From positions 558,001-622,000 of the forward strand of contig JAHLKG010000014.1 of NCBI GenBank assembly GCA_025526995.1: DNA of 64,000 nucleotides. The letters are read 5' to 3'. Below, piece after piece: positions 7,124-49,726 of the stretch (position 1 is the first letter of the stretch; every line of letters begins with the position of its first letter). The notes beneath the pieces are model-generated. The model was not told where the DNA came from. It saw only the letters and a list, made by a program, of their open reading frames with translations, and made no database searches. This DNA is from Powellomyces hirtus. Lineage: Eukaryota > Chytridiomycota > Chytridiomycetes > Spizellomycetales > Powellomycetaceae. Position numbers and translations under genes: made by a program.

Positions 7124-7419
7124 ATGCCAAGGTAAGCCAGTGTTGTGAGGAATGCTCCTGACATTCAGCGAGTAACACTTGGGTTTGGTGTGCTTCCATA
7201 GACGCGCCCTCATTGCGTATTCTCTTGTCAAATATATGAGTCCGATTCGTAATCCTCAGGACAGTGACCTTATGTTTCACAGTGGGGAAAAGGCTTCGTA
7301 AAGATGTCCGCCAGTTGATCGTCCGTATTAGTGTCGATGATTTCGATAATTTGCTTCGCGAACAAATCGCGTATAGCGTGGTACCAAACGTCAATGTGTT
7401 TTGTGTGTTGGTAGATAGC
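7124..7419 (-). pseudogene. pol: Copia-B RNase H C-terminal end (minus-strand copy)
   Basis: Read on the minus strand this matches the end of the Copia-B polyprotein at about 63690-64000: shared stretches include FPTVKHK, THIFD, VLLAECQE and HWLTLAST. It is broken by substitutions and stops and is cut at 7419 by the 5' LTR of Gypsy-A. The rest of the coding part of this Copia-B copy (Gag to RT) is absent from the window. Confidence 0.8.
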
Positions 7420-7694
7420 TGTAATGAGGCGTGGCTCACCAGCCTAAGCCTAGACACGCGTCGGGAAGGGTCCCGCGCGAGATGGATGCTAGCGTCAGCA
7501 TCCCGAAGGGTACTAGACCTCAGGGATGGCCACGGATGGCCATCACGTGACCAGGGCCGCTCCGCGGCCTAGAAGAAAAGTAGGAATGCTCCAACGAAGG
7601 CTCATTCAAGACTTAGAGATTTTACAGTAGAATTAGACATAGGGAATTCCCAAATAGAAGACTAGACTCTGGCAACGGACCTAGTTTTATTACA
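7420..7694 (+). repeat. Gypsy-A 5' LTR (copy 1)
   Basis: 275 bp, TGTAATGAGG...TTATTACA. It contains TCACGTGA (7543-7550). It is near-identical to 15116-15390 and related in reverse to the LTRs of copy 2. Confidence 0.95.
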
Positions 7695-7707
7695 TGGTAG
7701 CACCACC
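7695..7707 (+). other. Gypsy-A primer binding site
   Basis: TGGTAGCACCACC starts at the base after the LTR. It is identical to the Gypsy-B site at 992, so both chromovirus families probably share a tRNA primer. Confidence 0.7.
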
Positions 7708-7749
7708 CCGTAGACAACAACAAGGGCACGTAGCACCAGGAACAGCCCA

Positions 7750-8934
7750 ATGGCAGTAGGAGAACCCGAAGCCGACACACCAACCGACAACCCCGTCGCA
7801 ATGTTAGCTGCACAATTGGCGGAGACCCAACGCCTACTGCAGGAACAGATCGCAATGGGAGAGGCCCGCTTCGAAGCCCTTCTCTCAAGGATTCCGACCC
7901 CAGTCCGACCAGCGGTTGCAACACCGCACGTCAACATCATCCTGGCGGAAGAAAACCGTGCACGAATGCAAGCTGAGAAGGAACGCCGCGAGAACCTTCG
8001 CAAGCAGCTGACACACTTCAACGGAAAAGGGAACAGTGAATAAATGGTGTCGAAGGTCGACGAGTTCCTGAAGGTCCACACGCGCTACCTTGAGGCAACC
8101 GACTTCAGGACGGACCACCGGGACGTCGACCACATCTTGGGGTACCTCAAGGAAACCGCCGACAAATGGTGGCAAATGCTCAGGGATGCCGGCGACCAGC
8201 CCACGACATTGGAAGAATTCACGAGGATCCTCCGCATCCGCTTCTACCCCGCCAACTTACGAAACACCGCAGAAGCAAAGATGAAGCGGTTGGTTTTCAC
8301 CAATAGCATATCGGAGTATATCGCCAAGTTCAATACCCTTTGGGCCCAGATCGCGACACTTGACAACAAGGAGCGGCTTACCCCAAGGCAAGAACGTGAC
8401 TATTTCTTGACGGGATTCTCGACCAACCATGTCGGCCAGCGCATTCGGGACCACTGCTATGCCGCAATCATGAGAAATAATGGCGCCGAGATCCCAATCA
8501 CCGAGATACAGAATGAAGCTCTACTATGCTACAGGATTCGAGGCTATGCGGACGATGTCGCGCGGGTAACCTCCGACGGGAGGAGACGTCAGTACGCTGC
8601 AGTCCAGCCAGCTCAGGTACATCGAGGGAACTATCAAGCACGAGAAAGGGGACGCCACACCCCCTATGGCTCAGGTCGTCCCACACGCGGTATGGACAAC
8701 TACCAAGGGATTTCACGCCGTGAGCGCACCATCTACGACGAACGCCGTGAGCGCAACGAATGTTTCAACTGCGGGGGCAAGGGGCATTATGCCTGTGGGT
8801 GCCCAGCAAGTAAAGGTAAAACCGGTGAGCATAGGACGTTCGCCGCCCCTGTAGAGATCACCGAAGGGTCCGGAGACAAGGCGGCCAGCGACGGGGGCTC
8901 AGTCAACAGCTCGGATTTTTGCCCTGGGTGCTGA
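7750..8934 (+). pseudogene. gag: Gypsy-A gag (copy 1), one nonsense codon
   Basis: Gag of 394 codons counted through one internal stop. A coiled-coil-like start (AMLAAQLAETQRLLQEQIA) is followed by a capsid region (WWQMLRDAGDQPTTLEEFTR, YPANLRNTAEAKMKRL) and a CCHC knuckle (CFNCGGKGHYACGC near 8761). The stop is TAA at 8041, where copy 2 has GAA, a single-base change. Copy 2 also has an upstream ATG (MARSTLSSP) that is AGG here, so this Gag starts at the second ATG. The end overlaps pol by 16 bp in the -1 frame, suggesting -1 frameshifting to make Gag-Pol. Confidence 0.88.
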
Positions 8935-11900
8935 ACGCTTGCACCGTCTCAGTACCCCAACCCCGAATGCAAGACAAGATCCCCACGGACAGACCGGGAC
9001 CCCGCATTCACAGGAAGACATTTGTGGTCCACGGGAAGGTACAAGGGCACTTTGCCCGCATCCTAATCGATACCGGATGTAACACCCTGATCATCAGCGA
9101 CACTTGGGCCGCCAAACACGGCCTCCGGACCTACACCTCCCCAACTCCGCTGGAGGTCTGGTGGGGTGACAGAGCGGGAAACTACGGGGCAACAAAGATG
9201 ACCTGTGGGGACCTCTCGGTGTTCACCGAGGAGAAGATCATCTACCGGGAGGATACCGTACCGTTCATGGTCGCGCCAATCAGGGTCGATGCCATACTGG
9301 GCTTGCCATTCATATTGGGGCTGGACGTCCGAGGGCTTTTCGACCAAGGGGGCTTTCCAACGATGACGTTCTACCACGACGGCCAGACCCTCAGCCTTCG
9401 AGCCAAATCGACCAACCGCCACTGGGAAGCACCATCCGCGTGCGCCGCCCGTCTACTCTCCCCACGAGAGGTACGGCCCCGCAGATTCCAGCCGGCAAAG
9501 CCAGCACTCAATGCAGAGGGAATCTACACGGCCAAGCAATGGAAACGCTTGATGAAGAAGGGCGAGATCACTGGAGTCTTTGAGGTACACATTGTAGATG
9601 CGATTCCAGTCGCAGAGGCTCAATTTGTACGGACGGTCGACGCCAAGAAAAGGGCAATCTTGGAGGAACGACCCCACACCAACACTGAAGCCAAGGCGGC
9701 AGATCAGGAAGACCCGCTAGAGGCGCTGGCAGCCGACCATCCACTCCGACTGACCCTAGAGAAATACGTCACGACGCTATTCACCGAGCAGTCAGGCATG
9801 CCTCCGGACCGAGGCGAGGACAATTTCACCATTCGGCTCAAACCCGGCTCGAAGCCCGTGATGCAGCCACTCCGGCATTTGAGCCCTGACAAACTGGACG
9901 AGCTCGGCCAGCAGATGCAGCGTTTAATGGACAAGGGCTGGATCTCACACTCTCGCAGTCCGTGGGGCGCGCCCGTCCTATTTGCCCCAAAGAAGGACGG
10001 CGGCCTACGCTGCTGCATCGACTACCGGGCACTGCACAAGATGACTCACAAGGATGCCACGCCACTTCCGAACCTCTCGGAGCTGCGCGACAGGCTTGTC
10101 AACATGCGGGTATTCACCGCGATCGACATCCGCGACGCGTACCACTGCATCATGATCCGACCGGAAGATAGGGAGAAAACAGTGTTCCGAACACGTTTTG
10201 GACATTTCGAATACAATGTTCTACCTTTTGGCTTAACTAATGCACCTGCTACATTCCAGCGACTAACCAACAAGCTCTTGGGCGACAAGTACGACGCCTA
10301 CGTGATCTCATACCTCGACGATATCCTCATATTCAGCACCGACATGAGTTTGCACATTCAGCACGTCGACGAGGTCCTCAAGACCTTGACGGAACATCGC
10401 CTCCACGTCAAACCCAGCAAATGTCAATGGGCGGTTGACGAAGTCGAGTTCTGCGGCCACCGAGTCGGCAAGGATGGCCTAAGTATCGCCCCCTCCAAGG
10501 TGACCGCGGTCCGGGAACGACCTTGCCCGACCAACTCCCTGGAGCTCCTTAGCTTCATGGGCCTCGTCAACTATGTCAAGGAATACATCCCCGAGTATGC
10601 ACAGATTGCCCTACCCCTAACGAATCTGCAATCCGGCAACCGCCCATGGCAGTGGGGTGACAAGGAAGATCGAGCGTTCAATCGCTTAAAGGAATTATGC
10701 TCCTCGGCACCCACTTTAGCGTACTTCGACCCGGCGCTCGACACCTACTTGTTCACAGACGCATCGGGCTACGCCTACAGCGGATGGCTGGCGCAGCCGG
10801 CCAAAGGGGATTTCCCTTACCCTCACCCACTACCAACCACCAAATCGGGCTTAGCCAACCTCCCGCAACTTCGCCCGGTGACATACTACTCCCGCAAGAT
10901 GCAACCCGCCGAGACTCGATACCCCGTGCATGAACAAGAACTACTGGCATTAGTCAAGTCCATACGCGCCAACCGCCATTACCTCATTGGCCGCCCATTC
11001 CGCGCGTTTGTTGACCACAAGTCCCTGATCTACCTCCAGGAACAACCCCACCTGTCACGTTGCCAAGCAGGCTGGGTCGAGTTCCTCCAACAGTTTGATT
11101 TCTCAGTGGAATACCTCCCCGGCACATGGAATTCGATCGCCGACTTCCTCAGTCGCGACCCGACTTACGCCCCCAAGTGTGCAACCTGCCAGGCCAAGAT
11201 CAACGTGGTCACCGCCATTGTGCAGACGGAGAAGCCCATCACGACGCACATGCCGACCGATGCGGACTGGACCCAGACGCTCGCATCGGATGATTTCGGC
11301 CAAAACATCTTACTAACCATCAACAGTCCCCCGGAGAACCTATCCGGCCATGCACGCCGATTCCGGACAGTGGACTCCCCTCCGCACCGATTCTTGATGT
11401 ACCATGACCGTTGGTACGTCCCCGACAGCTTGCGGGGGCCACTCCTTCAGATTCATCACGACTCCCTCGCGAACGGTGGTCACTCCGGTGTCCAACGGAC
11501 GCTCGCCAAACTTCTGGAGTCGTATTACTGGCCCCACATGGAGCGTGATGTGTACCAATATGTCCGCACCTGCCCTACCTGCCAACGTCACAAGCGAACC
11601 ACGCCGATCGGTTTCCTCCGCAGCTTACCAATCCCCGACGCCCGTTGGCAACAAATCGGCATGGATATATTCTTCCCCACGTCAGACTCTAAGGGGGGGG
11701 AACCTCGGGTAGAGCCCGACGTGACGAAGAACCCTCCGCACCACACCGGCGAGAGACTGACCAAGACGGCAGATGCCGTACTCCTCATCGTCGACTACCT
11801 TTCATGCCGCGTGATACTCCTACCTACTAACACACGCGCTACAGCTCAGGAGACGGCTCAACTCTTTCTGGAACAGGCATTTCGCCACACGGGGTTACCC

Positions 11901-12857
11901 CACACCATCGTGAGCGATCGGGACCCCAAGTGGCTATCAGAATTCTGGCGGTACCTCATGCGGGCACTCGACGTCAAGCAAGAACTCTCGTCGGCACAAC
12001 ACCAACAGACCGACATCAAGGCGGAGAACGCCATCAAGGCGATCAAGGGAATCATGGGCCCCTTTCTCGACTATGCCGGCTCCAACTGGAAGAGTTTACT
12101 CCCCACACTCGAGTACAACTACAACCGAACGCCGCAGACGTCGACGGGACTATCCCCTTTCGAGGTTGACCTAGGCCGCGTTCCCCGGGTACCGAACCAA
12201 TGGGTAGCACCTAACCCCGGAGAGATGATAAGGCAATCGGCACGAACTGCCGTGGAGAGACGGATTAAGGAATTCGCCGACGTGAGTCGCATCGTGCAGC
12301 AACGGCTCCGAGATGCACAGGACCAGCAGGCAAAGTACTACGACCGCAAGAAGCACACGGAAGCATACCGAGAGGGTGACAAGGTCTTACCCCATCGTGA
12401 GGGTATCCCGATTACCAGCGTCACCACAAGGAACAAAAAGCTGGCTGAGCAATGGATTGGGCCATTCACAGTACGCGGCAAGGGGCCGCATCCTGACACC
12501 TACGAGCTCGAACTACCCAAGGAGTTCACCGGATTGCACCCAGTCTTTCACGTCAGCATTCTGAGACGTTACCATGACCCGGACGATACCCCGTACAGAC
12601 AGGTCACCGCTCCGCCTGAGCCCGAGAAGGACGAAGACGGTCAGGAGACCTACCAAGTGGATAACATCCTAAATGCCAGATGGCACAGGAACACCGAGCA
12701 GTTCTTAGTCAAGTGGACAGGTTACGACAGCACCCAGAACACGTGGGAGCCGTATGCACACGTGAAGGGGACGACCGCGCTGGAAGAATGGCTCCGGGAG
12801 CACCCCGGAGAGGACCGCGGCCAAAGGCTAGCGGCCAGGCGACGTAAGAGAACCTAG
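8919..12857 (+). CDS. pol: Gypsy-A pol (copy 1): PR-RT-RNase H-INT-chromodomain
   Basis: An uninterrupted 1312-residue frame. Protease: LIDTGCNTLIISD (about residues 49-61). RT: RCCIDYRALHKM, FTAIDIRDAYHC and the catalytic SYLDDILIF (near 10310). RNase H: YLFTDASGYAYSGW. Integrase: an HHCC zinc finger (HHDSLANGGHSG...CPTCQRHK), then the DDE core (GMDIFFPTSD, VSDRDPKWLSEFW, QTDIKAENAIK). The C-terminus is a chromodomain (YQVDNILNARW, FLVKWTGYDSTQNTWEP), which marks a chromovirus and, in studied relatives, steers integration to chromatin marks. Expression probably needs a -1 shift from gag. This is the best-preserved pol in the window and could be active in trans. Confidence 0.95.
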   Translation: MPWVLNACTVSVPQPRMQDKIPTDRPGPRIHRKTFVVHGKVQGHFARILIDTGCNTLIISDTWAAKHGLRTYTSPTPLEVWWGDRAGNYGATKMTCGDLSVFTEEKIIYREDTVPFMVAPIRVDAILGLPFILGLDVRGLFDQGGFPTMTFYHDGQTLSLRAKSTNRHWEAPSACAARLLSPREVRPRRFQPAKPALNAEGIYTAKQWKRLMKKGEITGVFEVHIVDAIPVAEAQFVRTVDAKKRAILEERPHTNTEAKAADQEDPLEALAADHPLRLTLEKYVTTLFTEQSGMPPDRGEDNFTIRLKPGSKPVMQPLRHLSPDKLDELGQQMQRLMDKGWISHSRSPWGAPVLFAPKKDGGLRCCIDYRALHKMTHKDATPLPNLSELRDRLVNMRVFTAIDIRDAYHCIMIRPEDREKTVFRTRFGHFEYNVLPFGLTNAPATFQRLTNKLLGDKYDAYVISYLDDILIFSTDMSLHIQHVDEVLKTLTEHRLHVKPSKCQWAVDEVEFCGHRVGKDGLSIAPSKVTAVRERPCPTNSLELLSFMGLVNYVKEYIPEYAQIALPLTNLQSGNRPWQWGDKEDRAFNRLKELCSSAPTLAYFDPALDTYLFTDASGYAYSGWLAQPAKGDFPYPHPLPTTKSGLANLPQLRPVTYYSRKMQPAETRYPVHEQELLALVKSIRANRHYLIGRPFRAFVDHKSLIYLQEQPHLSRCQAGWVEFLQQFDFSVEYLPGTWNSIADFLSRDPTYAPKCATCQAKINVVTAIVQTEKPITTHMPTDADWTQTLASDDFGQNILLTINSPPENLSGHARRFRTVDSPPHRFLMYHDRWYVPDSLRGPLLQIHHDSLANGGHSGVQRTLAKLLESYYWPHMERDVYQYVRTCPTCQRHKRTTPIGFLRSLPIPDARWQQIGMDIFFPTSDSKGGEPRVEPDVTKNPPHHTGERLTKTADAVLLIVDYLSCRVILLPTNTRATAQETAQLFLEQAFRHTGLPHTIVSDRDPKWLSEFWRYLMRALDVKQELSSAQHQQTDIKAENAIKAIKGIMGPFLDYAGSNWKSLLPTLEYNYNRTPQTSTGLSPFEVDLGRVPRVPNQWVAPNPGEMIRQSARTAVERRIKEFADVSRIVQQRLRDAQDQQAKYYDRKKHTEAYREGDKVLPHREGIPITSVTTRNKKLAEQWIGPFTVRGKGPHPDTYELELPKEFTGLHPVFHVSILRRYHDPDDTPYRQVTAPPEPEKDEDGQETYQVDNILNARWHRNTEQFLVKWTGYDSTQNTWEPYAHVKGTTALEEWLREHPGEDRGQRLAARRRKRT

Positions 12858-12887
12858 ATAGTGAGCTGTACCGTAAATTAACAAGAG

Positions 12888-13665
12888 AGATGCTACTTGA
12901 GGTAGAGGACATTATAGTGCGAGATTCCGGCATCGTTGGACGATGGCCGGAGGCTGTTGGACAGCATGCCTCGCTGGGCGAGATGCCGGCATTGTTGGAC
13001 GATGGCCGAAGGCTGCTGGGCAGCATACCTCACTGGGTGAGATGCCGGGATCGCTGGGCGATGAGCCGACGGCTTGCCGATGCAAGGTGACCGGCACCAG
13101 AATTGCATGGCGGCGTACCTCGAGACCCGCGGGGACCATGGCCGTGGTACATACCTACGCGAAGGGGAAGAGAAGGGCTTCGGCCAAGATACCGGCATTG
13201 TTTGACGATGGGCCGAAGGCCGCTGGGCGGCATACCTCACTGGGTGAGAAGGGTGATGCTGGGCATCGACCGGCTGCCGATGCAAGGTGACCGGCACCAG
13301 ATTTGCATGGCAGCGTACCTTGAGACCCGCGGGGACCATGGCCGTAGTACATACCCACGCGAAGGGGAAGAGAAGGGCTTCGGCCAAGATACCGGCATCG
13401 TTTGACGATGGGCCGAAGGTTGCTGGGTGACATACCTCGCTGGGCGAGATGCCGGGATCGCTGGGCGATGAGCCGAAGACTGCGAGGCAGTAGACCTCAC
13501 GAGGTGAGATGCCGGCATCGTTTGACGATGGGCCGAAGGTTGTTGGGCGACATACCTCGCTGGGCGAGATGCCGGGATCGCTGGGCGATGAGCCAAAGAC
13601 TGCGAGGCAGTAGACCTCACTAGGTGAGATACCGGCATCGTTGGACGATGGCCGGGGAACCGCTG
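12888..13665. repeat. Array of short perfect hairpins after Gypsy-A pol
   Basis: A tandem-repeat tract made of small inverted repeats with 4-6-bp arms and a 3-nt loop, usually TGG. Examples: CATCGT-TGG-ACGATG (12931-12945), CTGT-TGG-ACAG (12954-12964), CTCGC-TGG-GCGAG (12970-12982), CTCAC-TGG-GTGAG (13029-13041), ATCGC-TGG-GCGAT (13050-13062). Others use GAG or TAG loops (ACTGC-GAG-GCAGT). Arms differ between units yet stay complementary. A longer repeat of about 185 bp (from about 13077 and 13262) is embedded. Copy 2 has the same array at 43262-44228. Confidence 0.85.
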
Positions 13666-13920
13666 GGCGGTCTTCCCAACGGGGAAGTGTGATGCAGGGC
13701 ATCTACCATGAACACCATAGCCGGGAGGAAGCCGAATGACATTGGACACAGCGGATGCATACAAAATGCTACAAGGCTCAAGGGAGCACAGCGATGAGAA
13801 GGCAAGTACAGCGATGAGATTGTGGTACTGAATTTGATTATACGGGCCGAAGGCCAGGCCCCGAAGGAGCAACAGACAACAAGTGAAAGTATGTACAAGA
13901 AGGAGGGGGGGGAGAACTAA

Positions 13921-14668
13921 TCAACCAATCTTGGTGAAGGAGAATTGGCACCGGTTGCTGTGGCACCGGTCGCCCAACCCGCACCGGAGGGGGATGTAAT
14001 TTGCCACGTTCATCTCTCTGCGAAGAGAGCTGAGTTAGTCAGGTACGACAGCAGCAGGCCGAAGAGTACTACTTATGCGCGGACGTGGCCCATGCAGTGG
14101 AGATGGTTGCATGGAAACATGCGGAGGTCCGCTCCGACATGGTTGCAGCCAGCGAACTGGCACCCAGCGGGGATGGCCGCAAAGAAGAGAACCCGGCCGC
14201 AGTGGGAGGCGCCGCACGTCAACTGGCCCTGAGGGCCGTCGTTCTGGAAAGCAAAGGAACAAAGGAACCACACCGTTAGGAAGACATCAGGCCGCCTCTC
14301 AGCAAAGGGGGGGGACATACCGTGTCATCGGCCGCCGCCACGATGCAGGGCCGGCACACCAAATGGTGGCATTCCGATGTGAACATCTTGCTCTTGCGGA
14401 ATTGGTTGCACTTCCAGCAAGAGGGCAAGTCGGCCGACCTCTTGGGGGTGGACTTTTCATGGACCGAGGGGTCCTGTAGACAACAAGGGAAGACGGGGAA
14501 CATGAGACGAGTTGCCACAGCCGAGGACGAGCACCGACCCCTACTCACCCGGGCGGGCTGGGCCCGCTTGGTTGCGCCTTTCGCAAGTTGCTGGGCGGGC
14601 CGGCGCTTGCCCATGGTGGTGGTGGCGGTGTCGGGGGGGGGAGGAGAGTTGTTGGGGGTGTCAGCCAT
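13921..14668 (-). CDS. Antisense RING-like Cys/His-rich protein inside Gypsy-A (copy 1)
   Basis: A four-exon gene opposite to the element: exons 14549-14668, 14321-14473, 14077-14243, 13921-14017 (178 aa). Intron 1 (GTGAGT...CTACAG, 75 bp) and intron 2 (GTATGT...TTCCAG, 77 bp) look sound. The intron 3 donor is ATAAGT here but GTAAGT in copy 2. Zinc-ligand pattern: C59-x2-C62-x12-C75-x-H77-x2-C80-x2-C83-x17-C101-x4-C106, close to a C3HC4 RING but with an odd last spacing. More Cys/His follow (C119, C124, H126, C136, H138, C141, H144, C159, C165). The start is basic and Pro/Thr-rich. RING proteins are often E3 ubiquitin ligases; that role here is inference. It lies between pol and the 3' LTR. 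A TATA-like box is about 100 bp upstream. Confidence 0.75.
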
Positions 14669-14761
14669 GGTGTGTGTGTGTGCGTATGTGTGTGTTTGTG
14701 GTGTGAGTTCGTCGAGCTACAAAGAAAAGAAGAGCGAGAGGGGGAGATTCAACGGGCAGTA

Positions 14762-14772
14762 CCTTTTAAAGG
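14762..14772 (-). promoter_or_regulatory. TATA-like box of the antisense gene
   Basis: CCTTTAAAAGG on the minus strand, about 94 bp upstream of the antisense ATG. It is followed by a pyrimidine-rich stretch and a (TG/CA)n run that would form the leader. It is conserved in copy 2 at 42149-42159. Confidence 0.5.
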
Positions 14773-15105
14773 CTTGACCTGCTTGGGAACGCTCGGAAAT
14801 TCAGGTGTTAGTGTTTCATCCCCTACGGAGCGCAGCAGATGTTACTTATCGAAATCCGCATGGAGGAAGCTACTCGTGATTCATCTAGGGTCCCTGCAAA
14901 GAGAGAAATAGACTTTCCGACGATTTCGCGCACCACAAAGGGCGGAGACTACCCGTTGGAGACTACCGCGACGCGACCCGCGCCAGGGCCGCCTCCCCAG
15001 CCTCATCTTCCCACAACCACGTCAGCATCCGTTAACCTGCCGCCGCCCGGCTTAGGCAAGCTTCGCCTCGCTGAAGAGATTCAAGCCTAAGAGATAGTCG
15101 CGAAT

Positions 15106-15115
15106 CTAAGGGGGG
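15106..15115 (+). other. Gypsy-A polypurine tract
   Basis: TAAGGGGGG directly before the 3' LTR, the expected primer for plus-strand DNA. The complement occurs in copy 2 at 41806-41815. Confidence 0.75.
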
Positions 15116-15390
15116 TGTAATGAGGCGTGGCTCACCAGCCTAAGCCTAGACACGCGTCGGGAAGGGTCCCGCGCGAGATGGATGCTAGCGTCAGCATCCC
15201 GAAGGGTACTAGACCTCAGGGATGGCCACGGATGGCCATCACGTGACCAGGGCCTCTCCGCAGCCTAGAAGAAAAGTAGGAATGCTCCGACGAAGGCGCA
15301 TTCAAGACTTAGAGATCTTACAGTAGAATTAGACATAGGGAATTCCCAAATAGAAGACTAGACTCTGGCAACGGACCTAGTATTATTACA
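15116..15390 (+). repeat. Gypsy-A 3' LTR (copy 1)
   Basis: 275 bp, TGTAATGAGG...TATTATTACA, with 6 differences from the 5' LTR by my count. Confidence 0.95.
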
Positions 15391-15577
15391 CTGAGCAGAA
15401 CAACAAAGTAACTTAATCCCACTCTTGTTGGAGAAAAAGAGAAAAGTCCCACCGATATATTAAGTATGGAAGGAAAACTACTTATATCGGAGTTGATCAC
15501 GTGGGTTCACGTGATCGCGTGATACGCTTTGTGATGGCGCAGTTGTGACTCGATGACAGAGTCTGTACGTGCTAACA
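15391..15577 (-). repeat. Copia-B LTR fragment, minus strand (probably the 5' LTR of the interrupted copy)
   Basis: The reverse complement of most of the Copia-B LTR, ending GTGCTAACA at 15577. About 54 bp of its inner end are absent, replaced by Gypsy-A. With the LTR at 6109-6318 it brackets what is left of a minus-strand Copia-B. Confidence 0.8.
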
Positions 15578-41531: not shown

Positions 41532-41805
41532 TGTAATAATACTAGGTCCGTTGCCAGAGTCTAGTCTTCTATTCAGGAATTCCCTCTCTCTAATTCTACT
41601 GTAAGATCTCTAAGTCTTCAATACGCCCTCGTCGGAGTATTCCTAGTTTCCTCTGGACCGTGAGGCGGTCCTGGTCACGTGATGGCCATCCGTGGCCATC
41701 CCTGAGGTCTAGTACCCTTTGGGATGCTGAGGCTAGCATCCATCTTGCGCGGGGCCCTTCCCGATGTGTATCTAGGCTTAGGCTGGCAAGCCATGCCTCA
41801 TTACA
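41532..41805 (-). repeat. Gypsy-A 3' LTR (copy 2)
   Basis: 274 bp; on the minus strand TGTAATGAGG...ATTATTACA. The adjoining purine tract (minus strand, 41806-41815) marks this as the 3' LTR. Confidence 0.95.
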
Positions 41806-42148
41806 CCCCCCTTAGATTCGCAACTATCTCTTAGACTCAAATCTCTTCAGCGAGGCGAAGCTTGCCTAAGCCGGGCGGCGGGGGGTTAACGGATGCTGAC
41901 GTGGTTGTGGGAAGATGAGGCTGGGGAGGCGGCCCTGGCATGGGTCGCGTCGCGGTAGTCTCCGACGGGTAGTCTCTGCCCTTTGTGGTGCGCGAAGTTG
42001 TCGGAAAGTCTATTTCTCTCTTCGCAGGGGCCCTAGATGAATCACAAGTAGCTTCCTCCATGCGGATTTTGATAAGTAACATCTGCTGCGCTCCGTAGGG
42101 GATGAAACACTAACACCTGAATTTCCGAGCGTTCCCAAGCAGGTCAAG

Positions 42149-42159
42149 CCTTTAAAAGG
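42149..42159 (+). promoter_or_regulatory. TATA-like box of the antisense gene (copy 2)
   Basis: CCTTTAAAAGG, identical to copy 1, 105 bp before the ATG at 42264. Pyrimidine-rich and (CA)n sequence lies between. Confidence 0.5.
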
Positions 42160-42263
42160 TACTGCCTGTTGAATCTCCCCCCTCTCGCTCTTCTTTCCTT
42201 TGTAGCTCGACACACACACATCACACACACACACGCACATCTATACATACATACACAAACAAC

Positions 42264-43003
42264 ATGGCCGACGTCGCCAACAACTCTCCTTTCCCCTCCG
42301 ACACCACCACCGCGGGCAAGCGCCGGCCCGTCCAACAACTCGCAAAAGGCGCAACCAAGCGGGCCCAGCCTGCCCGGGAAAGTAGGGGTCAGTGCTCATC
42401 CTTGGTTGTGGCAACTCGTCTCATGTTCTCCGTCTTCCCTTGTTATCTACAGGACCCCTCGGTCCATGAAAAGTCCACCCCCAAGAGGTCGGCCGACTTG
42501 CCTTCTTGCTGGAAATGCCGCCGTTTCCGCAAGAGCAAGATGTTCATGTCGGAATGCCACCATCTGGTGTACCGGCCCTGCATCGTGGCGGCGGCCAACG
42601 ACACGGTATGTTCCCCCTGTGCTGAGAGGCGGCCTGATGTCTCCCTAACGGTGTGGTTCCTTTGTTCCTTTGCTTTCCAGAACGACGGCCCTCAGGGCCA
42701 GTTGACGTGCAGCGCCCCCCACTGCGACCGGGTCCTCTTCTTTGCGGCCATCCCCGCCGGGTGCCAGTTCGCTGGCTGCAACCATGTCGGAGCGGACCTC
42801 CGCATGTTCCCATGCGACCACCTCCACTGCATGGGCCACGTCCGCGTGTAAGTAGTACTCTTCGGCCTGCTGCTGTCTTACCTGACTAACTCAGCTCTCT
42901 TTGCAGCGAGATGAACGTGGCAAATTACACCCCCCTCCGGTGTGGGTTGGGCGACCGGTGCCACGGCAATCGGTCCCAATTCTCCTTCACCAAGCTTGGT
43001 TGA
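42264..43003 (+). CDS. Antisense RING-like Cys/His-rich protein inside Gypsy-A (copy 2)
   Basis: Same gene as at 13921-14668. Exons 42264-42377, 42453-42605, 42681-42847, 42907-43003 (176 aa). Intron 2 (GTATGT...TTCCAG, 75 bp) and intron 3 (GTAAGT...TTGCAG, 59 bp) are sound. The intron 1 donor is GAAAGT here where copy 1 has GTGAGT. Exons 2-4 have the same lengths as in copy 1 (153, 167, 97 bp) with substitutions but no indels. One RING ligand is lost: CHHLVYRPC replaces CHHLVCRPC. Skipping intron 1 splicing would keep the frame (75 bp, no stop). This copy is probably impaired; the comparison between copies is what supports the gene model. Confidence 0.7.
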
Positions 43004-43261
43004 TTAGTTCTTCCCCCCCCCCCCCCCCCCTTTCTTGTATATACTTTCGAATGTTGTCCGTTGCTCCCTTGGGGCCTGGCCCTCGGGCCGTAATCAAGAC
43101 CAGTACCAAAATCTCATCGCTGTACTTGCCTTCTCATCGCTGTGCTCCCTTGAGCCTTGTAGCATTTTGTATGCGTCCGCTGTGTCCAATGTCACTCGGC
43201 TTCCTCCCGGCTATGGTGCTCATGGTAGATGCCCTGCATCACACTTTCCCATTGGGGAGAC

Positions 43262-44228
43262 CGCTCAGCAGTTCCCCGGCCATCGTCCAACGATGCCGGT
43301 ATCTCACCTAGTGAGGTCTACTGCCTCGCAGTCTTCGGCTCATTGCCCAGCGAGATATGCTGCCCAGCAGCCTTTGGCCATCGTCCAACGATGCCGGCAT
43401 CTCACCTAGTGAGGTCTACTGCCTCGCAGTCTTCGGCTCATTGCCCAGCAATCCCAGCATCTTGCCCAGCGAGATATGCTGCCCATCAGCCTTCGGCCAC
43501 TGTCCAACAATGCCGGCATCTCACCTTGTGAGGTCTACTGCCTCGCAGTCTTCGGCTCATTGCCCAGCGATCCCGGCATCTTGCCCAGCAAGATATGCTG
43601 CCCAGCAGCCTTCGGCCATCATCCAACGATGCCAGCATCTCACCTCGTGAGGTCTACTGCCTTGCAGTCTTCGGCTCATTGCCCAGCGATCCCAGCATCT
43701 CGCCCAGCGAGGTATGTCACCCAGCGACCTTTGGCCCATCGTCAAACGATGCCGGTATCTTGGCCGAAGCCCTTCTCTTCCCCTTTGTGTGGGTATGTAC
43801 TGCAGCCATGGTCCCTGCGGGTCTCGAGGTACGCTGCCATGCAAATCTGGTGCCGGTCACCTTGCATCAGCAGTCGGTCGATGCCCAGCATCACCCTTCT
43901 CACCCAGTGAGGTATGCCACCCAGCGGCCTTCGGCCCATCGTCAAACGATGCCGGTATCTTGGCCGAAGCCCTTCTCTTCCCCTTCGCGTAGGTATGTAC
44001 CACGGCCATGGTCCCCGCGGGTCTCGCGGTACGCCGCCATGCAAATCTGGTGCCAGTCACCTTGCATCGGCAAGCCGTCTGCTCATCGCCCAGCGATCCC
44101 GGCATCTCACCCAGTGAGGTACGCTGCCCAGCAGCCTTTGGCCATCGTCCAACGATGCCGGCATCTTGCCCAGCAAGGTATGCTGCCCAGCAGCCTTCGG
44201 CCATTGTCCAACGATGCCGGAATCTCGC
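43262..44228. repeat. Hairpin array of Gypsy-A copy 2
   Basis: The reverse-strand counterpart of 12888-13665, about 190 bp longer. Small inverted repeats with CCA, CTA or CTC loops: CATCGT-CCA-ACGATG, CTCAC-CTA-GTGAG, ACTGC-CTC-GCAGT, and an exact 7-bp arm pair ATCTTGC-CCA-GCAAGAT near 43578. Unit number differs from copy 1, so the array expands and contracts. Confidence 0.85.
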
Positions 44229-44289
44229 ACTATAATGTCCTCTACCTCAAGTAGCATCTCTCTTGTTAATTTACGTTACAGCTTGCTAT

Positions 44290-47200
44290 CTAGGTTCTCT
44301 TACGTCGCCTGGCTGCTAGCCTTTGGCCGCGGTCCTCTCCGGAGTGCTCCCGGAGCCATTCTTCCAGTGAGATCGTTCCCTTCAGGTGTGCATACAGCTC
44401 CCACGTGTTCTGAGTGTTGTCGTAACCTGTCCACTTGACTAGGAACTGCTCGGTGTTCCTGTGCCATCTGGCATTTAGGATCCTGTCCACTTGATAGGTC
44501 TCCTGACCGTCTTCGTCCTTCTCGGGCTCAGGCGGGCGTGACCTGTCTGTACGGGGTACCACCCGGGTCGTGGTAACGTCTCAGAATGCTGACATGAAAG
44601 ACTGGGTGCAACCCGGTGAACTCCTTGGGTAGTTTGAGCTCGTAGATGTCAGGATGCGGGCCCTTGCTGCGTACTGTGAATGGTCCAATCCATTGCTCAG
44701 CCAGCTTTTTGTTCCTTGTGGTGACGCTGGTAATCGCGATACCCTCACAATGGAGTAAGACCTTGTCACCCTCTTGGTATGCTTCCGTGTGTTTCTTGCA
44801 GTCGTAGTACTTTGCCTGCTGGTCCTGTGCGTCTCCGGGCCGTTGCTGCACGATGCGGCCCACGTCGGCGAATTCCTTAATCCGTCTCTCCACGGCGGTT
44901 TGTGCCGATTGCCTTATCATCTCTCCGGGGTTAGGTGCTACCCATTGGTTTGGTACCTGGGGAACGCGGCCTAGGTCAATCTCGAAAGGGGATAGTCCCG
45001 TCGACGTCTGCGGCATTCGGTTGTAGTTGTACTCGAGTGTGGGGAGTAAACTCTTCCAGTTGGAGCCGGCATAGTCAAGAAAGGGGCCTATGATTCCCTT
45101 GATTGTCTTGATGGCGTTCTCCGCCTTGCTGTTGGTCTGTTGGTGTCGTGCCGACGAGAGTTCTTGCTTGACGTCGAGTGCCCGCATGAGGTACCACCAG
45201 AATTCTGATAGCCACTTGGGCTCCCGATCGCTCACTATGGTGTGGGGTAACCCCGTGTGGCAAAATGCCTGTTCCAGAAAGAGTTGAGCCGTCTCCTGAG
45301 CTGTAGCGCGTGTGTTACTAGGTAGAAGTATCACGCGGCATGAAAGGTAGTCAACGATGAGGAGTACGGCGTCTGCCGTCTTGGTCAGTCTCTCGCCAGT
45401 GTGGTGCGGAGGGTTCTTCGTCACGTCAGGCTCTACCCGAGGTTCCCCCCCCCCTAGAGCCTGACGTGGGGAAGAATATATCCATGCCGATTTGTTGCCA
45501 ACGAACGTCGGGGATTGGTAAGCTGCAGAGGAAACCGATCAGTGCGGTTCGCTTGTGATGTTGGCAGGTAGGGCAGGTGCGGACATATTGGTACACATCC
45601 CGTTCCATGTGGGGCCAGTATTATGACTCCAGAAGTTTGGCGAGCGTCTGTTGGACACCGGAGTGACCACCGTTTGCGAGGGAGTCATGATGAATCTGAA
45701 GGAGTGGCCCCCGCAAGCTGTCGGGGACGTACGGACAGTCATGGTACATCAAGAATCGGTGCGGAGGGGAGTCCACTGTCCAGAATCAGCGTGCATGGCC
45801 GGATAGGTTCTCCGGGGGACTGTTGATGGTTAGTAAGATGTTTTGGCCAAAATCATCCAATGTGAGCGCTTGGGTCCAGTCCGCATCGGTCGGCATGTGT
45901 GTCGTGACGGGCTTCTCCGTCTGCACAATGGTGGTGACCACATCAATCTTGGCCTGGCAGGTTGCACACTTGGGGGCGTAAGTCGGGTCGCGACTGAGGA
46001 AGTCGGCGATCGAATTCCATGTGCCGGGGAGGTATTCCACTGAGAAATCGAACTGTTGGAGGAACTCGACCCAGCCTGCTTGGCGACGTGACAGGTGGGG
46101 TTGTGCCTGGAGGTAGATCAGGGATTTGTGGTCAACAAACGCGCGGAATGGGCGGCTGATGAGGTAATGGCGGTTGGCGCGTATGGATTTGACTAGTCCC
46201 AGCAGTTCTTGTTCATGCACGGGGTATCGGGTCTCGGCGGGTTGCATCTTGCGGGAGTAATATGTCACCGGGCGAAGTTGCGGAAGGTTGGCTAAGCCCG
46301 ATTTGGTGGTTGGTAGTGGCTGAGGGTAAGAGAAATCCCCTTTGGCTGGCTGAGCCAGCCATCCGCCGTAGGCGTAGCCTGATGCGTCCGTGAACAAGTA
46401 GGTGTTGAGCGCCGGGTTGAAGTACGCTAGGGTGGGTGCCGAGGAGCATAATTCCTTTAAGCGATTAAACGCTGGATCTTCCTCGTCACCCCACTGCCAT
46501 GGGCGGTTGCCGGATTGCAAGTTCTTTAGTGGCAGGGCAATCTGTGCATACTTGGGAATGTATTCCTTGACGTAGTTGACGAGGCCCATGAAGCTAAGAA
46601 GCTCCAGGGAGTTGGTCGGGCGAGGTCGTTCCTGGACCGCGGTCACCTTGGAGGGGGCAATACTCAGGCCATCCTTCCTGACTCGGTGGCCGCAGAACTC
46701 GACTTTGTCAACAGCCCATTGACAGTTACTGGGTTTGACGTGAAGGCGATGTTCTGCCAAGGTCTTGAGGATCTCGTCAACGTGGTGAATGTGCGAATTC
46801 ATGTTGGTGCTGAATATGAGAATATCGTCGAGGTATGAGATCACGTAGACGTCGTACTTGTCGCCCAAGAGTTTGTTGGTGAGTCGCTGGAATGTAGCAG
46901 GTGCATTAGTTAAGCTGAAAGGTAGAACATTGTATTCGAAGTGTCCAAAACGGGTTCGGAACGCTGTTTTCTCCCTATCTTCCGGTCGAATCATGATGCA
47001 GTGATACGCGTTGCGGATGTCGATCACGGTAAATACCCGCATGTTGACAAGCCTGTCACGCAGTTCCGAGAGGTTCGGAAGTGGCATGGCATCCTTGTGG
47101 GTCATCTTGTTCAGTGCCCGGTAGTCAATGCAGCAGCGTAAGCCGCCGTCCTTTTTTGGGGCAAATAGGACGGGCGCGCCCCACGGCCTGCGAGAGTGTG

Positions 47201-48227
47201 AGATCCAACCCTTGTCCATTAAGCGCTGCATCTGCTGGCTGAGCTCGTCCAATTTGTCCGGGCTCAAATGTCAGAGTGGCTGCATCACGGGCTTCGAGCC
47301 GGGTTTGAGCCAAATGGTGAAATTGTCCTCGCCTCGATCCGGAGGCATGCCTGACTGCTCGGTGAATAACGTCGTGACGTATTTCTCTAGGGTCGGTCGG
47401 AGTGGATGGTCAGTTGCCAGCGCCTCTAGCGGGTCCTCTTGATCTGCCACCTTGGCTTTGGCGTTGGTGTGGCGTCTCTCCTCCAAGATTGCCCTCTTCT
47501 TGACGTCGACCGTCCGTACAAATTGAGCCTCTATGACTGGAAACGCATCTACGATGTGTACCTCAAAGACTCCAGTGATCTCGCCCTTCTTCATCAAGCG
47601 TTTCCATTGCTTGGCTGTGTAGATTCCCTCTGCATTGAGTGCCGGCTTCGCCGGCTCGAATCTGCGGGGCCGTATCTCTCGTGGGGAGAGCAGGCGGGCG
47701 GCGCATGCGGACAGTGCTTCCCAATGGCGATTAGTCAATTTGGCTCGAAGGCTGAGGGTCTGGCCATTGTGGTAAAACGTCATTGTTGGGAAGCCTCCTT
47801 GATTGAAAAGCCCTCGGACGTCCAATCCCAATATGAATGGTAAGCCAAGTATGACATCGACCCTGATTGGTGCGACCACAAATGGTACGGTGTCTTCCCG
47901 GTAGGTAATCTTCTCCTCGGTCAACACCGAGAGGTCCCCACATGTCATCTTCATTGCACCATAGTTTCCCACTCTATCACCCCATCGGACCTCCAGCGGA
48001 GTTGGAGAGGTGTAGGTCCAGAGGCCATGCTTGGCTGCCCAAGTGTCGCTGATGATCAGGGTGTTACACCCGGTATCGATTAGGATGTGGGCAAAGTGCC
48101 CTTGTATCTTTCCGTGAACCACAAATGTCTTCCTGTGGATGCAGGGTCCCGGCCTGTCCGAGGGGATCTTGTCTTGCATCCAGGGTTGGGGTACTGAGAC
48201 GGTGCAAACGTTCAGCACCCGGGACAA
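44290..48227 (-). pseudogene. pol: Gypsy-A pol (copy 2), broken
   Basis: Pieces 48227-47271 (protease and linker), 47267-45786 (RT and RNase H), 45608-45426 (integrase zinc finger), 45424-44528 (integrase core) and 44562-44290 (chromodomain). The stop at 47268-47270 is TGA where copy 1 has CGG, both changes being transitions at a CpG. Another TGA at 45783-45785 replaces CGA, and a C-run near 45450 shifts the frame. RT retains YLDD and integrase retains DDE-region residues. The pattern suggests decay by C-to-T change; no activity expected. Confidence 0.92.
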
Positions 48228-49423
48228 AAATCCGAGCTGTTGACTGAGCCCCCGTCGCTGACCGCGTCATCCCCAGACTCTTTGGTGATCTCTACAGGGG
48301 CAGCAAACATTCTATGCTCACCAGTCTTACCTTTACCTGCTGAGCACCCACGGGCATAGTGCCCCTTGCCTCCGCAGTTGAAACATTTGTTGCGTTCACG
48401 ACGTTCGTTATAGGTGATGCGCTTGCGGTCTGAGATCCCTCGGTGGTTGTCCGTACCGCGCGTGGGACGACCTGAGCCATAGGGGGTGTGGCGTCCCCTT
48501 TCTCGTGCTTGATAGTTCCCTCGATGTACCTGAGCCAGCTGGACTGCAGCGTACTGACGTCTCCTTCCGTCGGGGGTTACCTGCGCGACATTGTCCGCAT
48601 AGCCTCGAATCCTGTAGCATAGTAGAGCTTTGTTCTGTAGCTCGGTGATCGGGATCTCGGCGCCATTATTCCTCATGATTGCAGCATAGCAGTGGTCCCG
48701 GATGCGCTGGCCGACATGGTTGGTCGAGAATCCCGTCAAGAAATAGTCACGTTCTTGCCTTGGGGTAAGCCGCTCCTTGTCGTCGAGCGTTGCGATCTGG
48801 GCCCGAAGGGTATTGAACTTGGCAATATACTCCGATATGCTATTAGTGAAAACTAGCCGCTTCATCTTTGCTTCTACGGTGTTTCGTAAGTTGGCGGGGT
48901 AGAAGCGGATGCGGAGGATCCTCGTGAATTCTTCCAATGTTGTGGGCTGGTCACCGGCATCTCTGAGCATTTGCCACCATTTGTCGACGGTTTCCTTGAG
49001 GTACCCCGAGATGTGGTGGACGTCCTGGTGGTCCGTCCTGAAGTCGGTTGCCTCAAGGTAGCGCGTGTGGACCTTCAAGAACTCATCGACCTTTGACACC
49101 ATTTCTTCACTGTTCCCTTTTCCGTCGAAGTGTGTCAGCTGCTTGCAAAGGTTCTCACGGCGTTCCTTCTCGGCTTGCATTTGTGCGCGGTTTTCTTCCG
49201 CCAGGATGATGTCGACATGCGGTGTTGCAACCGCTGATTGGACTGGAGTTGGAATCTTTGAGAGAAGGGCTTTGAAGCGGGCCTCTCCCATTGCAATCTG
49301 TTCCTGCAGTAGGCGTTGGGTCTCCGTCAATTGTGCAGCTAACATTGCGACGGGGTTGTCAATCGGTGTGTTGACTTTGGGTTCTCCTACTGCCATTGGG
49401 CTGCTCAGGGTGCTACGTGCCAT
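48212..49423 (-). CDS. gag: Gypsy-A gag (copy 2), intact
   Basis: A complete 403-aa Gag starting MARSTLSSPMAVG at 49423, 28 bp inside the primer site. A coiled-coil-like N-terminal helix, capsid region (KWWQMLRDAGDQPTTLEEF) and CCHC knuckle (CFNCGGKGHYARGC) are present. It overlaps the start of pol by 16 bp in the -1 frame, as in copy 1. Because pol is broken here, this Gag could only serve other elements. Confidence 0.9.
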   Translation of the reverse strand: MARSTLSSPMAVGEPKVNTPIDNPVAMLAAQLTETQRLLQEQIAMGEARFKALLSKIPTPVQSAVATPHVDIILAEENRAQMQAEKERRENLCKQLTHFDGKGNSEEMVSKVDEFLKVHTRYLEATDFRTDHQDVHHISGYLKETVDKWWQMLRDAGDQPTTLEEFTRILRIRFYPANLRNTVEAKMKRLVFTNSISEYIAKFNTLRAQIATLDDKERLTPRQERDYFLTGFSTNHVGQRIRDHCYAAIMRNNGAEIPITELQNKALLCYRIRGYADNVAQVTPDGRRRQYAAVQLAQVHRGNYQARERGRHTPYGSGRPTRGTDNHRGISDRKRITYNERRERNKCFNCGGKGHYARGCSAGKGKTGEHRMFAAPVEITKESGDDAVSDGGSVNSSDFCPGC

Positions 49424-49437
49424 TGTTGTTGTCTACA

Positions 49438-49451
49438 GGGTGGTGCTACCA
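49438..49451 (-). other. Gypsy-A primer binding site (copy 2)
   Basis: On the minus strand TGGTAGCACCACCC, next to the 5' LTR, as in copy 1. Confidence 0.7.
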
Positions 49452-49726
49452 TGTAATAATACTAGGTCCGTTGCCAGAGTCTAGTCTTCTATTCGGGAAT
49501 TCCCTCGCCCTAATTCTACTGTAAGATCTCTAAGTCTTGAATACGCCCTCGTCGGAGTATTGCTAGTTTTCTTCTGGACCGCGAGGCGGTCCTGGTCACG
49601 TGATGGCCATCCGTGGCCATCTCTGAGGTCTACTACTCTTCGGGATGCTGACGCTAGCATCCATCTCGCTCGGGGCCCTTCCCGATGCGTATCTAGGCTT
49701 AGGCTGGCGAGCCACGCCTCAATACA
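49452..49726 (-). repeat. Gypsy-A 5' LTR (copy 2)
   Basis: 275 bp. The outer end reads CTCAATACA (plus strand) instead of CTCATTACA. The TGTGG target duplication follows at 49727. Confidence 0.95.

Follow-up and report, generated by a model that had tools for sequence, protein, structure and literature searches.

The antisense gene brtn of a fungal long terminal repeat (LTR) retrotransposon was reportedly described by Zhao et al. in 2011. It is mentioned, as a gene of the Boty-like elements of Botrytis cinerea, in passages of PMC8365987, PMC7264820, PMC4227169 and PMC5987419, and the gag-pol of Boty-like elements is described as carrying a CHROMO domain (PMC4227169). According to a review, LTR retrotransposons are known to carry antisense accessory genes, the function of which is not known (PMC7264820), and HBZ of human T-cell leukemia virus type 1 (HTLV-1) is named as an antisense retroviral regulator in a passage of PMC11963269. 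Here we analyzed a 64,000-nt stretch of the chytrid Powellomyces hirtus (contig JAHLKG010000014.1, positions 558,001 to 622,000; referred to below as the window), in which a Ty3/Gypsy chromovirus, element A (7420..15390, plus strand), carries on its opposite strand a gene that looks spliced and has a second copy in a neighboring element, element B. The first-pass annotation of the window had regarded an intron-bearing, RING-like antisense gene in a fungal chromovirus as new; as a kind, antisense genes of fungal Gypsy elements with a chromodomain are preceded by brtn, as the citing passages describe it. Across the genome the gene occurs in two exchangeable types, and this is a larger and more unusual finding than the window copies themselves.

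The antisense gene and its coding frame

The gene occupies the position called aORF-3R, between the end of pol (12857) and the 3' LTR (15116-15390) on the strand opposite to gag-pol, where the first-pass annotation had placed it. In copy 1 (L025) it runs on the minus strand from 14668 to 13921 and consists of four exons of 120, 153, 167 and 97 bp with a predicted product of 178 aa. Exon 1 (14549..14668) encodes a basic, Ser/Pro/Thr-rich N-terminus and exon 2 (14321..14473) the first RING-like ligands; exon 3 (14077..14243) and, in the splice model, exon 4 with the stop codon (13921..14017) complete the frame. Intron 1 (14474..14548, 75 bp) and intron 2 (14244..14320, 77 bp) are bounded by GT-AG, and intron 3 (14018..14076, 59 bp) has AT instead of GT at its donor (14076-14075). 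Copy 2 (L065; 42264..43003, plus strand) has its exons, as placed from the exon lengths, at 42264-42377, 42453-42605, 42681-42847 and 42907-43003, and its donor 1 (42378-42379) reads GA instead of GT. Both window copies are broken genes because one donor site is mutated in each, and intact copies lie elsewhere in the genome. The GT/AG introns drawn previously for the locus thus fail at these two donors, while the equal lengths of exons 2 to 4 in the two window copies and the conservation of a TATA-like box (CCTTTAAAAGG; 14762..14772, minus strand) were borne out.

We searched the 29.26-Mb genome (60 contigs) with the antisense gene itself, and both types of copies reported here were found in this way; of 137 pol candidates, 40 were scored. 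For the main type, to which the window copies belong (T1), 57 copies were fetched and 56 aligned; with 40 of the 81 candidates from the initial genome search scored, the copy total is a lower bound. One copy, L080, was excluded from the T1 alignment and from later analyses; its element stops short at the end of a contig (G000:C27), cut off there by telomere-like repeats of the TTAGGG type. Another, L079, has a disturbed 3' part and was excluded from the diversity, residue-variability, splice-site, bootstrap and frame analyses, and 12 further copies (L082-L093) were compared by BLAST only. Two pairs of genes are identical (L039/L040 and L044/L045), so that neither the copies nor the pairwise values derived from them are all independent.

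An open four-exon frame reaching the exon-4 stop, with GT-AG at all three introns, was present in 31 of the 56 T1 copies. Among these, L044 and L045 have lost 15 bp in frame from exon 4, and in L061 part of exon 1 is in another frame. Exons 2 and 3 measure 153 and 167 bp in 56/56 copies and exon 1 ranges from 108 to 127 bp; introns 1 to 3 are 75-76, 74-81 and 59 bp long and retain GT-AG in 52, 52 and 53 of 55 copies, respectively. The TATA-like box is exact in 36/55 copies and has one extra A in eight. None of the 56 aligned copies has lost an intron, as would follow from reverse transcription of the sense RNA alone; the first-pass annotation had proposed that the introns survive for this reason, and their stable lengths fit. 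Among the tblastn matches, the surroundings of which were not checked match by match, none was recognized as a host gene lying outside the elements.

The frame carries a codon-level signal. Over exons 2 to 4 of T1, the pooled ratio of nonsynonymous to synonymous differences (pN/pS) is 0.34 (95% codon-bootstrap interval 0.24-0.48), with a mean dN of 0.041, a mean dS of 0.128 and an intermediate intron divergence of 0.070; a ratio below 1 over many copies was what the first-pass annotation had expected of a functional gene. Control frames over the same exons gave 0.88 and 1.31 on the same strand and 0.79, 0.37 and 1.43 on the opposite strand. The value of 0.37 belongs to the sense-strand mirror frame, in which the third codon positions fall on the third positions of the antisense gene. 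We considered whether a sense-strand open reading frame (ORF) might lie behind the codon pattern and rejected it, as the mirror frame contains stops in exon 3 of 55/55 copies and in exon 4 of 52/52 full-length copies; it is open in exon 2 of 54/55 copies and in exon 1 of 16/17 counted. As a yardstick, the reverse transcriptase (RT) of the same element family has a pN/pS of 0.19 over 21 sequences, namely 15 from T1 stretches (20 fetched, four without an RT match and one partial), the two window copies and four elements of the second type. At the residue level, from position 41 on in 55 T1 copies, variability is 0.9% at Cys and 1.6% at His, compared with 6.0% at other residues (permutation p 0.0004 for Cys and His combined). 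A chance ORF is ruled out by the 31 open copies, the codon constraint, the conservation of Cys and His, the frame of the second type and a GenBank protein match, the last two of which are described below. As judged from these comparisons, the spliced-looking antisense gene under protein-level selection inside the chromovirus is real.

Two gene types and the exchanged cassette

The GenBank protein DFJ77DRAFT_512327 of Powellomyces hirtus (P0003) matches the spliced translation of a divergent copy, L114 (C15:379402), at 178/178 residues, in agreement with the four-exon, 178-aa model first drawn for the window. A tblastn search with P0002, a database protein considered below, recovered loci at 34-64% amino-acid identity besides T1; 20 were fetched and 17 entered the alignment of type 2 (T2), from which L129, L130 and L131, being partial or mixed, were excluded. 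The T2 exons are again 120, 153, 167 and 97 bp in 12/15 spliced loci, with introns of 58-59, 74-76 and 62 bp; a full-length open frame with GT-AG introns is present in eight of the 15, and in a ninth the frame stays open with 6 bp deleted in frame. The TATA-like box is also present in T2, reading CCTTCAAAAGG at most of the loci shown. T1 and T2 products align without gaps at 55% identity over 172 residues, and beyond residue 40 P0003 shares with the window copy all 14 Cys and six of the nine His. Over all codons, T1 and T2 differ by a pS of 0.55-0.60 and a pN of 0.30-0.32 (10 loci), with Fisher p-values from rounded counts of 5.6e-9 for L114 and 8.3e-7 for L124, and pN/pS among T2 copies is 0.35 (10 loci). 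The introns stand in the same three places in both types and are 42-58% identical, near chance. The exon pattern, splice positions and zinc ligands kept between types at such a pS make this an unusually clean case of an antisense gene.

A change of donor 3 from GT to AT was observed in several copies of both types (window 14077-14075, L053, L119, L120 and L132). In T1 this G is often part of a CpG, and recurrent deamination at this donor is possible.

We compared T1 and T2 along the 3' part of the element in 50-bp steps, using nine T2 loci and excluding L114, L118, L123, L128, L132, L133 and the pair of a third type described below. Mean identity is 89-97% from 15390 to 14941, with one step at 83%, and 78-90% from 14940 to 14741; it is 43-74% from 14740 to 13891 and 81% at 13890-13841, and reaches 97% at 13840-13791, about 100 bp beyond the gene end. 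In the same profile the two window copies are 78-100% identical to each other and T2 copies 91-98%. The divergent stretch marks out an approximate cassette (13841..14940, minus strand) with the presumed promoter region, the gene and a short 3' part, its promoter (left) edge being gradual and its right edge sharp. Outside the cassette the backbones are close: T1-T2 identity in the LTR is 91-94% in L114-L125 and 87-91% in L128, L132 and L133, and the RT of four T2 elements is 93.5-97.3% identical to that of the window element, compared with a T1 range of 92.3-98.4%. The distance from RT to the end of pol in these four agrees within 2 bp with the window, placing their RT stretches collinear with the gene loci. 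In the RT tree, in which some node supports are modest, the T2 element L134 groups with relatives of the window copy and the other three T2 elements lie elsewhere; a single clade of the four T2 backbones was rejected by the approximately unbiased (AU) test (p = 0.0135). Accelerated evolution in place of exchange was also considered and rejected, since the introns diverge too and the flanks do not. Together, the profile and the tree show that a cassette of putative promoter region plus gene was exchanged between element backbones. Such bounded exchange suggests that antisense genes are modules under selection, not passengers.

A third type, T3 (L126 and L127; G000:C16 and C38), was observed in decayed form, with an LTR region that could not be aligned. 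By numbers taken from one of its two decayed and near-identical loci, exon identity is 71.5% between T1 and T3 and 63% between T1 and T2; in the LTR region T1 and T3 are 53% identical, which is chance level, and T1 and T2 92-94%. T3 is thus nearer to T1 in its exons yet at chance in the LTR region, so that gene and backbone histories differ. With identities of about 60% to T2 in exon 2 and about 75% to the window element in the LTR region, L131 (G000:C12:328549-331228) is possibly a fourth gene type.

The product, its proposed role and rival explanations

The predicted product looks like two successive zinc-binding modules of RING-like type, both of which contain, in T1, a C-x-H-L-x-C core. 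The candidate ligands of module 1 are C59-x2-C62-x12-C75-x-H77-x2-C80-x2-C83-x17-C101-x4-C106, and those of module 2 are C119-x4-C124-x11-C136-x-H138-x2-C141-x2-H144-x14-C159-x5-C165, with an additional C170. RING ligands follow the pattern C-x2-C-x(9-39)-C-x(1-3)-H-x(2-3)-C-x2-C-x(4-48)-C-x2-C, into which the first seven ligands fit, the last spacing being C-x4-C in both types. The zf-C3HC4 profile weakly matches 7/8 T1 products (E up to 0.1), and the best PDB match of a T1 product by sequence is PCGF5 (E 0.022, weak). The ligand order noticed in the first-pass annotation, which had called the product RING-like, was confirmed as a zinc-type pattern of low variability; the RING assignment itself fared less well, as the scores given below indicate. 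Both types share an N-terminal KRR..QQL.K.A.K, which we take to resemble a bipartite nuclear signal.

We propose that a promoter of its own drives transcription of the antisense gene in the interval between pol and the 3' LTR, that the transcript is spliced from four exons, a structure shown by its conservation, and that the 178-aa product combines a basic, nuclear-signal-like N-terminus with two RING-like zinc modules, as the conserved residues suggest. The product would most likely enter the nucleus and, by analogy with other antisense accessory genes, may there regulate transcription, silencing or integration on the element's behalf. Replication through the sense RNA would keep the introns in place, and two old gene types would circulate in one element family, swapped between backbones probably by template switching between co-packaged RNAs. 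We consider this whole account, a selected spliced antisense accessory gene encoding a nuclear zinc-protein regulator in two exchanged types, to be probable. That the gene is in addition a specificity locus, with at least two old functional types shuffled among backbones and differing in the host factor or sister elements on which they act, is a tentative extension; if true it would be, to our knowledge, the first intron-bearing exchangeable 'type' locus of an LTR retrotransposon.

Several results weigh against the proposed account. The Pfam RING cut-off of 21 bits was not reached by three T1 products, which scored 16.3, 15.6 and 14.1 bits, and the type-2 product scored 18.2 bits against zf-RING_5, with a cut-off of 27.9. 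A PDB sequence search with P0003 gave no RING chain among its matches, an AlphaFold prediction from P0003 and P0002 had a mean pLDDT of 31.8, unusable for the fold, and the nuclear role is one that we infer. The right flank of L114 is divergent (64%). Mean diversity within T1 is 0.086, 0.079, 0.046 and 0.039 in exons 1 to 4 and 0.071, 0.071 and 0.044 in introns 1 to 3, so that raw exon and intron diversity are similar. Equal divergence of exons and introns had been named in the first-pass annotation as an observation that would speak against a functional gene; it is superficially present within T1 and is resolved by the codon-level analysis and the second type. In T1, dS exceeds intron divergence, for which we have no explanation. 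GT/AG positions vary at 1.2%, compared with 4.2% at other intron positions, a difference that is not significant (p 0.09). A fall of dN/dS from 0.97 to 0.25 with increasing dS had pointed to relaxed selection after insertion; it was a binning effect, gone when pairs of copies were classed by intron divergence, in which case pN/pS is flat (0.42, 0.35, 0.33, 0.34, 0.34 and 0.38). We have withdrawn this as a separate sign of relaxed selection, and an RT trend binned on dS in the same way was left unused.

Other explanations of the gene were considered. A self-limiting or interference factor would damp the expression or transposition of its own type of element, in the manner of the Gag-derived p22 of yeast Ty1, and the two types would be specificity groups that do not cross-react, which would favor exchange and keep both. 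Two old types in one backbone, type-2 backbones that do not group together in the tree and a gene with its own promoter-like box would all fit such a factor; neutral exchange with drift also yields two types, and we regard this explanation as doubtful. A role in counter-defence, in which the product would be a RING E3 ubiquitin ligase directed at a silencing factor of the host for its removal, with type divergence as the mark of an arms race, draws on the zf-C3HC4 and PCGF5 matches and on the retention in P0003 of all the window-copy cysteines. Against it stand the Pfam scores below curated cut-offs, the PDB matches of P0003, which include no RING chain, a last ligand pair of C-x4-C where C-x2-C is usual, the usual E2-contact residues, which are not evident, and a gene-wide pN/pS ratio below 1; such a counter-defence function appears unlikely.

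It is much harder to see the antisense RNA as what matters, with an incidental protein frame and an effect through double-stranded RNA, small interfering RNA or antisense regulation. Antisense transcripts of some other elements are described in a review passage as non-coding (PMC7264820), but the codon constraint, the conserved cysteines and exons that stay gap-free at a pS near 0.59 beside introns near chance make this reading very improbable here. Equally improbable is the capture of a gene from an integrated linear DNA virus. It is prompted by the record of an 'oncoid' of 'Powellomyces chytrid fungus MELD virus 1' (P0002), one of only two database matches of the product (E up to 1). P0002 includes translated introns 1 and 2, ends at a TAA inside donor 3 and is 95.9% identical to L049, and because of the translated introns and the position of the stop it reads as the unspliced ORF of an ordinary copy of the antisense gene. 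The comparison suggests that this DNA-virus protein of the databases is the retrotransposon gene described here. Its name presumably follows a scheme in which the 'Oncoid' class is, in the passage that introduces it, defined solely by short linear motifs (PMC11071296). Two IMG/VR scans gave no relative, though records near this genome may be omitted there, and tblastn against phages found no relatives of the gene. A Gag search (E up to 1e-20) gave four matches, none of them the MELD virus 1 record. A search of the genome for the DNA-virus polymerase family PF03175 gave no match and is uninformative, as the control genomes gave none either.

Carrier elements and comparison with known systems

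Element A is bounded by LTRs at 7420-7694 and 15116-15390, each of 275 bp, 97.8% identical and ending in TGTAAT...ATTACA. Its pol (8835..12857, plus strand) has Pfam matches to protease, RT, RNase H, integrase and chromodomain, and the RT-RNase H-integrase order, the C-terminal chromodomain and the LTRs identify the carrier as a Ty3/Gypsy chromovirus. Nested tandem repeats with periods of about 60, 120 and 200 bp fill 12919..13654 (plus strand), in the interval between pol and the antisense gene. Element B (41532..49726, minus strand) has LTRs that are 93.1% identical and a 5-bp target-site duplication, TGTGG. No matching duplication flanks element A, where ATAGC (7415-7419) faces CTGAG (15391-15395); given these flanks, element A is possibly a recombinant between elements. 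Elsewhere in the window, an ORF at 4074-6122 matches Ty3_capsid/Retrotrans_gag and also the Pol_BBD, GAG-pre-integrase and rve domains. Powellomyces hirtus is a culturable, saprobic chytrid, and the gene opens the way to direct tests of function, namely nuclear localization, zinc binding, effect on silencing and type specificity.

Among the described systems, HBZ has a spliced form and encodes a bZIP protein. The chytrid gene is like it in being read in antisense from the 3' side and in presumably encoding a nuclear regulator, with no sequence relation implied, and it differs in that the product is RING-like. With brtn it shares the condition of an additional antisense gene in a fungal Gypsy element; introns, zinc modules and exchanged types are not described for brtn in the citing texts, a comparison made by description only. 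No spliced or RING-bearing antisense gene of such elements is named in the open-licence titles and abstract openings searched, a set that does not include the 2011 brtn paper and is no proof of absence. In position, the chytrid gene may be likened to the aORF-3R class of plants as outlined in PMC7264820 and PMC11963269, which includes gene23 of Grande, ORF4/TRP28 of Retand, RIRE2 and PvRetro13. For gene23, the same sources report, in the passages concerned, its own promoter and a nuclear product, and for about half of the Retand elements they report tandem repeats in the same interval as in element A. The words 'intron' and 'zinc' do not occur in the available text of PMC11963269, and the Retand elements, as described there, are not chromoviruses, whereas the carrier of the chytrid gene is a chromovirus.
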